Assembly (NCBI RefSeq): GCF_014854695.1
Contig: NZ_CP027557.1
Span: 2,852,001-2,916,000, forward strand
Length of the DNA stretch: 64,000 nucleotides
From: Rhodococcus rhodochrous
Lineage (GTDB): Bacteria; Actinomycetota; Actinomycetes; Mycobacteriales; Mycobacteriaceae
Direction: 5' to 3'
The notes beneath the pieces were generated by a model. The model saw nothing but the letters and a program-made list of their open reading frames with translations. It was not told where the DNA came from and did no database searches. A program made the position numbers and the translations under genes. How positions within the stretch are numbered: the first letter of the stretch is position 1; each line of letters starts with the position of its first letter. Below are positions 45,244 to 49,580 of this stretch, in pieces.

Positions 45244-46698
45244 ATGTCAGTCGTAGAACCATCGAAGAGTTCGGGAACCCGTAAGCACCACGACGGCGCC
45301 GACTTCCACGCCGAGAAGAGCGAATACCTCGAAAAACGTTCACTGCGTAAAGGAACCGCAGGGTGGGTGCTCCTTGCAGGACTCGGTGTCAGTTATGTCA
45401 TCTCCGGTGACTACGCCGGATGGAACAACGGACTCGCCGAAGGTGGATTCGGCGGCCTGCTCATCGCCAGCGTGGTCATCGCGGGCATGTATTTCGCGAT
45501 GGTGCTCGGGATGGCGGAATTGTCGTCGGCCCTTCCGGCCGCAGGGGGCGGATACACCTTCGCTCGTCGCGCGCTCGGCCCCTGGGGTGGATTCGCCACC
45601 GGCACGGCCATTCTCATCGAGTACGCGATCGCCCCTGCGGCCATCGCGACGTTCATCGGCAGTTATGTCGAATCGTTGAACATCTTCGGGATCACCGACG
45701 GATGGTGGATCTACCTCGCTGTCTATGCCATTTTCATCGGCATCCACCTCACCGGTGCGGGCGAAGCGCTCAAGGCGATGTTCGTCATCACCGCCATCGC
45801 ACTCGTCGGACTCGTGATCTTCGCGATCTCCGCGGTGGGACTGTTCGAGTCCGACAATCTCACGGACATTACGCCGACCGATGCCGTCGGTGCCTCGGGC
45901 TTCCTGCCGTTCGGCTACTTCGGTATCTGGGCCGCAGTTCCGTTCGCGATCTGGTTCTTCCTGGCGATCGAGGGCGTTCCTCTCGCTGCGGAGGAAGCGC
46001 GCGAGCCGGAGAAGAACGTGCCCCGCGGCATCATCTCCAGCATGCTGGTGCTCCTGGTGACAGGAGCGACGGTGCTGTTCCTCGCGACCGGTGCGTTGGG
46101 TGCCGAGGGGTTGTCGACCTCGGGCAACCCGCTCGTCGAGGCGCTGGGTGACGGGACAGCGGCGAAGGTCGTCAACTACATCGGGCTCGCCGGGCTGATC
46201 GCCAGCTTCTTCTCCATCATGTACGCGTACTCGCGGCAGACCTTCGCGTTGTCCCGCGCCGGCTACCTGCCGACGAGCCTGTCGGTGACGAATTCGCGCA
46301 AGGCCCCCATACTCGCGTTGATCGTGCCCGGCGTGATCGGCTTCGTCCTGTCGCTGACCGGTGAGGGCGCGATGCTCCTCAACATGGCGGTCTTCGGTGC
46401 CGCCGTGAGCTACGTGCTCATGATGGTCAGCCACATCGTGCTGCGCGTGCGCGAGCCCGGGATGCCGCGTCCGTACCGCACGCCCGGTGGTGTCGTTACG
46501 ATCTCGTTCGCGCTGGTGATCGCCGCGGCCGCTGTGGTGGCCACCTTCCTCGTCGATCCCGTCGCGGCTCTGTGGACGTTCGCCGCGTTCGCGGCATTCA
46601 TGGCCTACTTCGGTCTCTACAGCCGTCACCACCTCGTCGCGAACTCCCCGGACGAGGAGTTCGCGGCCCTCGCGAAGGCAGAGGAAGAGCTGGGGTGA
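45244..46698 (+). CDS. APC-family permease, ethanolamine permease-like
   Basis: 484 residues with AGGGAG upstream. An N-terminal polar tail is followed by twelve helices. The sequence GTAGWVLLAGLGVSYVISGDYAGWNNGLAEGGFGGLL and the later EEAREPEKNVPRGIISSML strongly resemble the ethanolamine permease (Eat) group of the APC superfamily. The eutBC ethanolamine ammonia-lyase genes usually found with it are absent, so the substrate is likely ethanolamine but unproven. Confidence 0.83.
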   Translation: MSVVEPSKSSGTRKHHDGADFHAEKSEYLEKRSLRKGTAGWVLLAGLGVSYVISGDYAGWNNGLAEGGFGGLLIASVVIAGMYFAMVLGMAELSSALPAAGGGYTFARRALGPWGGFATGTAILIEYAIAPAAIATFIGSYVESLNIFGITDGWWIYLAVYAIFIGIHLTGAGEALKAMFVITAIALVGLVIFAISAVGLFESDNLTDITPTDAVGASGFLPFGYFGIWAAVPFAIWFFLAIEGVPLAAEEAREPEKNVPRGIISSMLVLLVTGATVLFLATGALGAEGLSTSGNPLVEALGDGTAAKVVNYIGLAGLIASFFSIMYAYSRQTFALSRAGYLPTSLSVTNSRKAPILALIVPGVIGFVLSLTGEGAMLLNMAVFGAAVSYVLMMVSHIVLRVREPGMPRPYRTPGGVVTISFALVIAAAAVVATFLVDPVAALWTFAAFAAFMAYFGLYSRHHLVANSPDEEFAALAKAEEELG

Positions 46699-47634: not shown

Positions 47635-48867
47635 TCACTGTTCCGCGGGGACGAGGATCCCTGCGCGCAACAGCCGTTCGACCAGGTCGGTCCCGAGGGT
47701 TTTCGCCGGGTGGGATCCGCCGTCGAGCAGGCGCGTGACAGACGGCAGTTCCTCGTCCGCCACAGAGACACGGCCGACACGCGTGACCAGGTGTGAACCT
47801 TCCAGGCGCGCATACAGTGCGCTGCGGAGTTTCACCGTGGTGTCGGGGCCGAGATCGTGGACGGCGGCGAATTGGGCGAGCGGCCCCAGCGGTGCCGGAC
47901 GGGCCTGCTCCCGCCGGGCACGACGGAACAGGGAGGTGACGTCCGCCTCGCCCAGTACGGCGATGAGATGCTCACGAACAGCAGCGATCTCGGCTTCCGG
48001 GTCATCGATCCCCATGGGCAGCGCGTCGCGCATCTCGGGATCGTCGCCGAGCGCAGCGAGTGCTGCCCGGGTCAGATGCTCCGCAAGTGCGTGGCGCGTC
48101 CACGTGTGGATGCCGACGGTGAGGTGGATGGAGATCTCCCCTCGCGCCTCGGCGGCATGGATCCAGCCACGCGGTAGATAGAGGCAATCGCCGGGTTCGA
48201 GCACGGTGTCGATGCACGCAGGCTCTGTCGCGGCTCGGGCGACAGCGGCGCGGTGATCGGTCCAGGGTTGATTGCGCAGCGGCGCCGGGTGGACGGGCTC
48301 GTGGATCACCCATCTCTTGGTTCCCTCGATCTGCACGACGAAGACGTCGTGGACGTCGTAGTGGTGGCTGAACCCCTGGTTCCGAGGTGGAGTGATGTAC
48401 GCGTTGACCTGGACGGGGTGTCCGAGTTCGTCGCTCAGAGCGGTGCCGAACTGCGAGATCGGTTCCCACGTGCGGTGCAGTGCCTGCAGGACGAGGGTGG
48501 CACCGTCGGCAAGGTTGCGCCAGAGCATCGTGTCGTCGAGTTGGTCGGAGATGGTCGCTCCGACACCGGCGGGGGAGGTGAACGACGAGTCCGGCAGTGT
48601 CGTCCCGTCCTTGGCGACGCGAAGAAAGGGCGTGCGGAGTCCGCGACGCGAGATGAGTTCGTCGACCGCCTCGGCGGAGAACAGGTCGGTGAATGTCCCG
48701 GCGCTACGCGTCAGCAGTGGTGCTCGCCCCCAGATCTCGGACGCGAACTTCTTTCGACCGATGTCGATCAGGCGGGTTTCCAGGACTCCGGCGTCCGTTT
48801 CGACGCCGGAGTCCTGGGTGCGGTGCGAGGAGTCCTCACACTCAGCTGCCGCCGTCGGCTCCGCCAT
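47635..48867 (-). CDS. JmjC/cupin-4 2-oxoglutarate oxygenase-like protein
   Basis: About 410 residues. Conserved cupin-4 (ribosomal-oxygenase, YcfD/RoxA-like) core: RAPLLTRSAGTFTDLFS, then iron ligands HYDVHD (HxD), later LEPGDCLYLPRGWIHAAEA (distal His). A winged-helix-like C-terminus follows. Relatives hydroxylate Arg/His side chains of ribosomal proteins. The only good in-frame start, ATG 48867, lies within the 3' end of the Gly-Asp repeat gene, an overlap of about 26 bases. So the oxygenase is translationally coupled to that peptide. The start is uncertain. Confidence 0.8.
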   Translation of the reverse strand: MAEPTAAAECEDSSHRTQDSGVETDAGVLETRLIDIGRKKFASEIWGRAPLLTRSAGTFTDLFSAEAVDELISRRGLRTPFLRVAKDGTTLPDSSFTSPAGVGATISDQLDDTMLWRNLADGATLVLQALHRTWEPISQFGTALSDELGHPVQVNAYITPPRNQGFSHHYDVHDVFVVQIEGTKRWVIHEPVHPAPLRNQPWTDHRAAVARAATEPACIDTVLEPGDCLYLPRGWIHAAEARGEISIHLTVGIHTWTRHALAEHLTRAALAALGDDPEMRDALPMGIDDPEAEIAAVREHLIAVLGEADVTSLFRRARREQARPAPLGPLAQFAAVHDLGPDTTVKLRSALYARLEGSHLVTRVGRVSVADEELPSVTRLLDGGSHPAKTLGTDLVERLLRAGILVPAEQ

Positions 48868-49099
48868 CGGCTCCTCCGTCAGCCCCACCGTCGGCTCCAC
48901 CATCGGCTCCGCCGTCGCCACCGCTGTCGGCTCCACCATCGGCCCCGCCGTCCGCACCGCCGTCGCCACCGCTGTCGGCGCCCCCGTCGGCTCCGCCGTC
49001 AGCGCCACCGTCGTGAACGCCCGGGCCGCCGACTGCGCCGCCGTCCGCCGGGCCTTCCTGGCCTTCGTCCTTGTTCGGATCCTGCTGTGGGTCGGTCAT
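48842..49099 (-). CDS. Gly-Ala-Asp (ADGG) repeat protein
   Basis: 85 residues from ATG 49099 with GGGAGG upstream. A polar 30-residue leader-like N-terminus (MTDPQQDPNKDEGQEGPADG) is followed by some fifty residues made almost only of Gly, Ala, Asp and Ser in GGAD/GGADS repeats, ending GGADGGS. Asp recurs about every fourth residue. On the DNA level it is a 12-base repeat. No cysteine, aromatic or membrane segment is present. It precedes and overlaps a 2-oxoglutarate oxygenase gene. Function unknown: a calcium-binding spacer, a modified peptide precursor and low-complexity drift are all possible. Confidence 0.7.
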   Translation of the reverse strand: MTDPQQDPNKDEGQEGPADGGAVGGPGVHDGGADGGADGGADSGGDGGADGGADGGADSGGDGGADGGADGGADGGADGGADGGS

Positions 49100-49328
49100 G
49101 ATTCCTCCCGAGGTCAAAAGGCTTGGGAACAGCGGCGTTACCGGCTCCCGGAGCCTGCAGCGGTGTATCGTTCGGCCGTTCTCAGCTTATCCGGGCGCAT
49201 CGGTGGCCACGTTCGATTCCGAGATCATCGAACCGTTGTGCCACGCGTTGTACCCGCGCACTCGCCGGCGCGGCGTCGCGTAGAAGAAAGCCGAGGCGTT
49301 GCTCGCCGATAATCGGGTACAGGAGAGT

Positions 49329-49580
49329 ATGGCTGACGAGAATCCCGACGCGTCCGAGTTCGACCCGCAGAACCCCGATCCCGCGAACACTCCTGGTCTC
49401 GAACCCGGGGGCGGGGTGGCGCCCGGAGATACTCCGCCCGCCGAGACCTCTGTGGGCGGTCCGCAGCACGAACCGCCACAGCGCCGCAGTGCCGGCGCCC
49501 TCGTCGCCATCGTGATCGCAGTGGTCGTGGCCTTGATGGTGGCCGGCGGTCTGCTCGTTCGAGCAATCGGGTTGTTCTGA
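49329..49580 (+). CDS. DUF6480-family small membrane protein
   Basis: 83 residues from ATG 49329 (AGGAGAG upstream). The N-terminus NPDPANTPGLEPGGGVAPGDTPPAETS matches the Pro/Gly-rich DUF6480 signature. One C-terminal helix (ALVAIVIAVVVALMVAGGLLV) anchors it. Function unknown. Confidence 0.8.
   Translation: MADENPDASEFDPQNPDPANTPGLEPGGGVAPGDTPPAETSVGGPQHEPPQRRSAGALVAIVIAVVVALMVAGGLLVRAIGLF

Follow-up and report, generated by a model that had tools for sequence, protein, structure and literature searches.

An aspartate-repeat peptide paired with a JmjC oxygenase across actinobacteria points to an undescribed peptide-modification system

Hydroxylases act in several described RiPP pathways. 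The biphenomycin pathway includes a 2OG or cupin-type hydroxylase, PbsQ/BpmG (PMC12257519), PesHI hydroxylates Asp in nitrilobacillins (PMC13060819) and SmaO does so in graspetides (cited in PMC13097080); Asp β-hydroxylation is a known RiPP modification. These pathways modify one or a few residues, are antibiotic-like and contain other tailoring enzymes. The RRE-Finder update describes JmjC proteins of PF08007 to which RRE-like folds are fused, and notes that bacterial homologues occur in RiPP-like contexts (PMC12710340); its accessible text names neither an Asp-repeat precursor nor a Suc_Fer partner nor a cassette combining them with the oxygenase. The closest known relatives within PF08007 are the ribosomal oxygenases NO66, MINA53 and YcfD (RoxA).

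Here we analyze a three-gene cassette in a 64,000-nt stretch of the Rhodococcus rhodochrous genome (the window, to which all coordinates refer unless stated otherwise). Its oxygenase has the same JmjC fold, HxD...H triad and C-terminal winged helix as NO66, MINA53 and YcfD, but is only ~20–27% identical to them, is patchily distributed, has a fixed Asp-repeat peptide partner and gives no sign of a ribosomal target. The cassette resembles the PbsQ/BpmG, PesHI and SmaO pathways in placing a small precursor gene beside the enzyme, here with side-chain hydroxylation predicted, and differs from them in its many repeated Asp sites, the lack of any other tailoring enzyme and its phylum-wide conservation. 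A search of the open-licence PubMed Central literature returned no text with the repeat strings and no description of a peptide/oxygenase cassette. Judged from sequence, the pair points to an undescribed peptide-modification system. Its features are as follows.

48842..49099, minus strand: aspartate-repeat peptide gene, 85 aa, with homologues in front of the oxygenase gene in every close relative that could be evaluated
49104..49109, minus strand: Shine-Dalgarno sequence GGGAGG of the peptide gene, before its ATG, assigned from sequence
47635..48867, minus strand: JmjC_2 (PF08007) 2OG/Fe(II) oxygenase, 410 aa, predicted to start inside the peptide gene
47638..47895, minus strand: predicted C-terminal winged-helix (RRE-like) domain of the oxygenase, residues 325–410, from AlphaFold2 and structural matches
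48780..48817, minus strand: RNA hairpin with a 16-bp perfect stem at the peptide/oxygenase junction, within the first oxygenase codons
46729..47625, minus strand: Suc_Fer-like (thioredoxin-like ferredoxin) gene, 298 aa, PF06999

All three genes lie where the sequence-only reading had placed them. The peptide and oxygenase genes overlap by 26 nt, and 9 nt separate the oxygenase stop from the start of the Suc_Fer-like gene. In the oxygenase frame, an ATG at 48867 falls within the repeat and is preceded by GGAGGA, and between the end of the peptide and the conserved domain the frame contains no ATG, GTG or TTG. An ATG is found at the equivalent site in each of the five Rhodococcus genomes that share this arrangement (L002 to L006), and the sixth Rhodococcus locus (L007) has a candidate GTG start for the oxygenase that overlaps the stop codon of the peptide (GTGA). 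We infer that the oxygenase starts at 48867 because this ATG is conserved and has GGAGGA upstream of it. Among relatives, 77 of 139 assigned peptide starts have a 6/6 match to GGAGGA/AGGAGG. Programmed frameshifting from peptide into enzyme was considered and rejected, because the relative frame varies among Rhodococcus loci (L004/L005 versus L007) and start codons exist. A DUF6480 protein of 93 aa (49299–49580, plus strand, 72 bits) is the divergent neighbor of the cassette, and an ethanolamine permease gene (45244–46698, plus strand, TIGR00908, 522 bits) faces it from the other side.

The window peptide can be written MTDPQQDPNKDEGQEGPADGGAVGGPGVHDGG(ADGG/ADSG/GDGG)nS and consists of a polar start, MTDPQQDPNKDEGQ, a single EGPADGGAVGGPGVHDGG unit and then the (ADGG/ADSG/GDGG)n array. 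Of the 14 matched four-residue units, 12 differ in their coding 12-mers, and third codon positions account for 198 of 246 pairwise differences between units, a count in which positions 1 and 2 are partly constrained because unit matching relied on the protein pattern. What is preserved in the repeat is its amino-acid sequence, while its codons vary. No Pfam or NCBIfam family matched the peptide in any repeat type tried; a weak PT-repeat match in a long JmjC frame proved to be an artifact of repeat DNA read out of frame.

Peptide and oxygenase occur in the same genomes. Six of the 18 Rhodococcus genomes sampled carry the oxygenase, and the same six carry the peptide; a seventh genome gave two weak peptide matches, both inside a 320-aa frame. 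In a family sample of 301 genomes, both genes are found in the same 86 (six of Rhodococcus and 80 of other genera) and neither is found in the other 215. Outside the genus, an SNPxGHDGG-type peptide query matched exactly the 80 oxygenase genomes, with zero matches in genomes of the family sample lacking the oxygenase, and all 80 pairs are neighbors that share a contig and a strand; the gap between the two matches runs from −23 to 141 nt (median, 29.5 nt). The sequence-only reading had named, as counting against it, a repeat protein that lacks the oxygenase in most genomes; these samples show the opposite, and the substrate–hydroxylase pair that it proposed gains support at the genomic level from strict co-occurrence and adjacency.

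The pairing extends through the actinobacterial phylum. In a phylum sample of 396 genomes, the peptide query matched in five, each time adjoining an oxygenase (5/5); this query misses deeper repeat types and is therefore uninformative on orphan peptides of those types. Scanning named genomes yielded 80 oxygenase loci, including those of Rhodococcus, Arthrobacter and relatives, Kocuria, Streptomyces, Brevibacterium, Brachybacterium, Leucobacter, Nakamurella, Flexivirga and others, with the peptide upstream of the oxygenase in every evaluable locus (L042, L048 and L006 are cut off by contig ends and were not evaluable). When loci were grouped by oxygenase identity, pairing was found in 83 of 83 evaluable loci at ≥60%, 32 of 33 at 42–60% and 28 of 29 at 34.3–42%, the last group consisting mostly of deep actinobacterial lineages; inspection of the exceptions showed an Asp-rich open reading frame (ORF) without clear repeats at L134, the other being L179. 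None of six JmjC paralogs below 34.3% identity has the peptide. The score behind these counts, small-residue plus Asp content, was chosen after the peptides had been seen; comparable Asp-repeat ORFs are rare upstream of random neighboring genes, where 27 of 835 ORFs reach a score of 18 and 10 of 835 a score of 19. Asp density, the first statistic tried, failed to separate ADGG-type peptides from background and was replaced.

In the oxygenase tree, Rhodococcus sequences (L002, L005 and L007; compare L044 and L051) nest within Micrococcaceae (support 98/83 and 99/77) and are widely separated from other members of their own family. Because of this nesting, the cassette was probably acquired by horizontal transfer. 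Repeat type follows the same tree closely, changing seven times, compared with 34 when shuffled, with some long end branches. The clade-specific units include ADGG, SNPxGHDGGADGSA, DGTDADGT, DGDAADAV and others, always with Asp beside small residues. A common N-terminal motif, LTDEDIxT or INDDDITT, marks peptides of the deeper lineages; a strict pattern finds it in 28 of 31 and 23 of 28 cases, and most of those failing the pattern are near matches; ADGG-type peptides lack this motif and have MTxPEQDPNQQ-like starts. A distinct repeat, [ADGTDQGVxGGTYGPRDAS]n, with a GDDDISSS leader, was observed in the peptide upstream of the L145 oxygenase.

We think it probable, on the strength of sequence comparisons, that the peptide is the dedicated multi-site substrate of the oxygenase, a RiPP-like precursor that would be β-hydroxylated on Asp, with the Suc_Fer-like protein as an accessory. 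The C-terminal RRE-like winged helix of the enzyme would hold the peptide while the active site, using O2, Fe(II) and 2-oxoglutarate, would oxidize its repeated residues, most likely at the β-carbon of Asp in each ADGG-type unit. The expected product is a Gly/Ala-rich peptide studded with β-hydroxyaspartate, probably intracellular, which might bind cations such as iron or calcium. Dense hydroxylation of this kind, if it occurs at many Asp sites, would be unusual for bacterial proteins and might yield a new metal-binding biopolymer. An orphan clade of bacterial JmjC oxygenases thereby gains a candidate natural substrate, amenable to a two-gene test in E. coli.

Conservation singles out Asp as the best candidate target. 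Only Asp, Gly and Ala are found in all 142 pooled peptides, which makes Asp the sole potentially modifiable residue common to them; His occurs in 112, Asn in 54 and Cys in three. β-Hydroxylation is the most likely reaction. To our knowledge, however, the known PF08007 enzymes hydroxylate His or Arg and not Asp, and a different outcome on the same substrate has to be weighed, in which the enzyme would act on the His of the PGxHDGG unit or on Gly/Ala, or would carry out another oxidation such as desaturation or cross-linking. NO66 and MINA53, the closest enzymes with solved structures, hydroxylate His, and His is frequent among the pooled peptides; but it is missing from 30 of the 142, 23 of these being among the 28 deep-group peptides, whereas every peptide has Asp, and several loci have Gln, Leu or Glu in its place. 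We consider this alternative unlikely, and Asp hydroxylation remains our preferred reading.

The oxygenase matches PF08007 JmjC_2 with E = 3e-28 and 98.3 bits (cut-off 22), and its HxD...H triad (H169, D171 and H237) is invariant. The AlphaFold2 model of the full protein has a mean pLDDT of 75.6 and most closely resembles the structures of NO66 (VIA Z 24.9, 268 residues aligned, rmsd 6.4), MINA53 and YcfD. Modeled alone, the C-terminal 86 residues reach a pLDDT of 87.1 and match best the winged helices of NO66 and MINA53 (Z ~9), followed by many RiPP recognition elements (PbtF, NisB, MibB, TbiB1, PqqD, McbB and MccB) at a modest Z of ~5–6, mixed with some unrelated proteins. The domain carries conserved Arg residues that would suit an acidic peptide. 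The cassette also bears on the question of whether the ribosomal-oxygenase winged helix and the RiPP recognition element have a common origin. A bolder and rather doubtful reading is that the winged helix is a true RiPP recognition element and that the products form a phylum-wide class of ribosomal peptides with multiple β-hydroxyaspartates, serving as oxygen-ligand buffers of metal or calcium; if so, the ribosomal oxygenases (RoxA, NO66 and MINA53) and RiPP hydroxylases would have branched from a single peptide-recognition lineage.

Plasmid-borne relatives of the oxygenase, with identities up to ~33%, belong to other subfamilies and were set aside. On a Streptomyces clavuligerus plasmid (L189:2760–2906), an Asp/Pro-rich 48-aa peptide, MDDKKTSLEPDEIEVIPP..., precedes another PF08007 enzyme (~32% identical), and its start resembles the LTDEDIETV leader. 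The Pseudanabaena galeata plasmid pPg_03 (L187) encodes a LanM-type lanthipeptide synthetase three genes away from a cyanobacterial PF08007 relative.

The junction between the peptide and oxygenase genes carries an RNA hairpin whose pairs covary across genera. Stems of at least 13 bp are present at this position in 47 of 84 ADGG-type loci, with sequences that differ by genus (examples besides the window are L044, L098, L102, L106 and L114); the remaining ADGG-type loci lack a long stem at the junction, and some loci of the same family have 12–14-bp stems slightly further downstream. At one pair position in 40 anchored loci, CG occurs 13 times, UA ten, AU eight and GC eight. Because these loci were selected for long stems, the evidence lies in the variety of pair types and not in the share that is paired, and the shuffled control, the largest of 20 shuffles, is too coarse for a probability. 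We found no intrinsic terminator or terminator-like U run at the junction, and an Rfam search gave nothing above threshold. The hairpin may act as an attenuator: together with the overlapping start, it would keep the yield of enzyme lower than that of peptide.

A regulatory upstream ORF would also fit the gene overlap and the hairpin, in which case the small ORF would be only a translational leader coupling or tuning expression and the oxygenase, which has the fold and family of the ribosomal oxygenases, would modify a ribosomal protein as YcfD/RoxA does. A leader of this kind sits poorly with a repeat whose amino acids are kept while its codons vary and whose units differ between clades with Asp always retained. 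Furthermore, 12 of the 18 genomes of the genus lack the enzyme, which makes a ribosomal housekeeping substrate unlikely; the sequence-only reading had named a ribosomal protein as the true substrate that would count against its proposal. We therefore regard this explanation as very improbable and retain the peptide as the candidate substrate.

The Suc_Fer-like protein scores 61.1 bits against PF06999 (cut-off 34.9). Its relatives in the cassette have invariant C9, C131, C139, C140, H164-X3-D168 and C279. In yeast Aim32, an HX3H motif accompanies a CX8C cluster motif (PMC8482512). Like Aim32 and Apd1 of the Suc_Fer family (PMC8482512), the cassette protein has CX8C and a downstream His motif; unlike them, it has HX3D for HX3H and the extra invariant Cys residues C9, C140 and C279. 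Across the cassette proteins, CX8C and the first His are invariant and Asp replaces the second His in 134 of 135, giving a variant, CX8C...HX3D, of the Aim32-type CX8C...HX3H [2Fe–2S] motif in place of the motif itself.

By a Cys/His motif test, the oxygenase gene is followed by a Suc_Fer gene in 86 of 86 loci with ≥60% oxygenase identity and in 21 of 32 and 25 of 30 loci of the two deeper identity groups, compared with none of the six paralog controls. It is also the only neighbor conserved across most of the 80 named-genome loci within flanks of up to 10 kb. We then searched 12 genomes whose oxygenase has no adjoining Suc_Fer gene, and seven have no PF06999 match anywhere (G087, G102, G022, G186, G499, G572 and G476, the last an incomplete genome). 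Because several genomes with the peptide/oxygenase pair have no Suc_Fer gene, we take the protein to be an accessory; the redox partner of the sequence-only reading thus holds as a usual neighbor of the oxygenase, and not as a constant member of the system. It may serve in electron transfer, for example by maintaining the iron of the enzyme in its reduced state through many turnovers. The same flanks of the 80 loci contain no conserved protease or exporter and so give no indication of a classical RiPP that undergoes maturation and secretion. Genome G000 has a second Suc_Fer-like gene away from the cassette (C1:3810478–3811020, minus strand).

Metal binding by the hydroxylated product is plausible. 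The peptide of Cys-based RiPP metallophores of the bufferin type contains Cys. The window peptide, in contrast, has none, and Cys is absent from the repeat regions of 139 of 142 relatives. High Asp content, an oxygenase that needs iron and a Suc_Fer protein predicted to carry a cluster would also be compatible with an unmodified acidic binder of metal or calcium, serving the oxygenase or the Suc_Fer protein, for example as an iron donor or solubility partner, while the enzyme acts on another substrate. However, the one-to-one pairing with a single enzyme clade and the leader of the deep lineages look like those of an enzyme–substrate pair, and IdeR/DtxR, Zur and PhoP boxes upstream of the peptide show no clear gain over shuffled sequence, the IdeR/DtxR and Zur result in particular speaking against such a binder. 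We give little credence to the unmodified binder and favor a peptide that is modified by its neighboring oxygenase.
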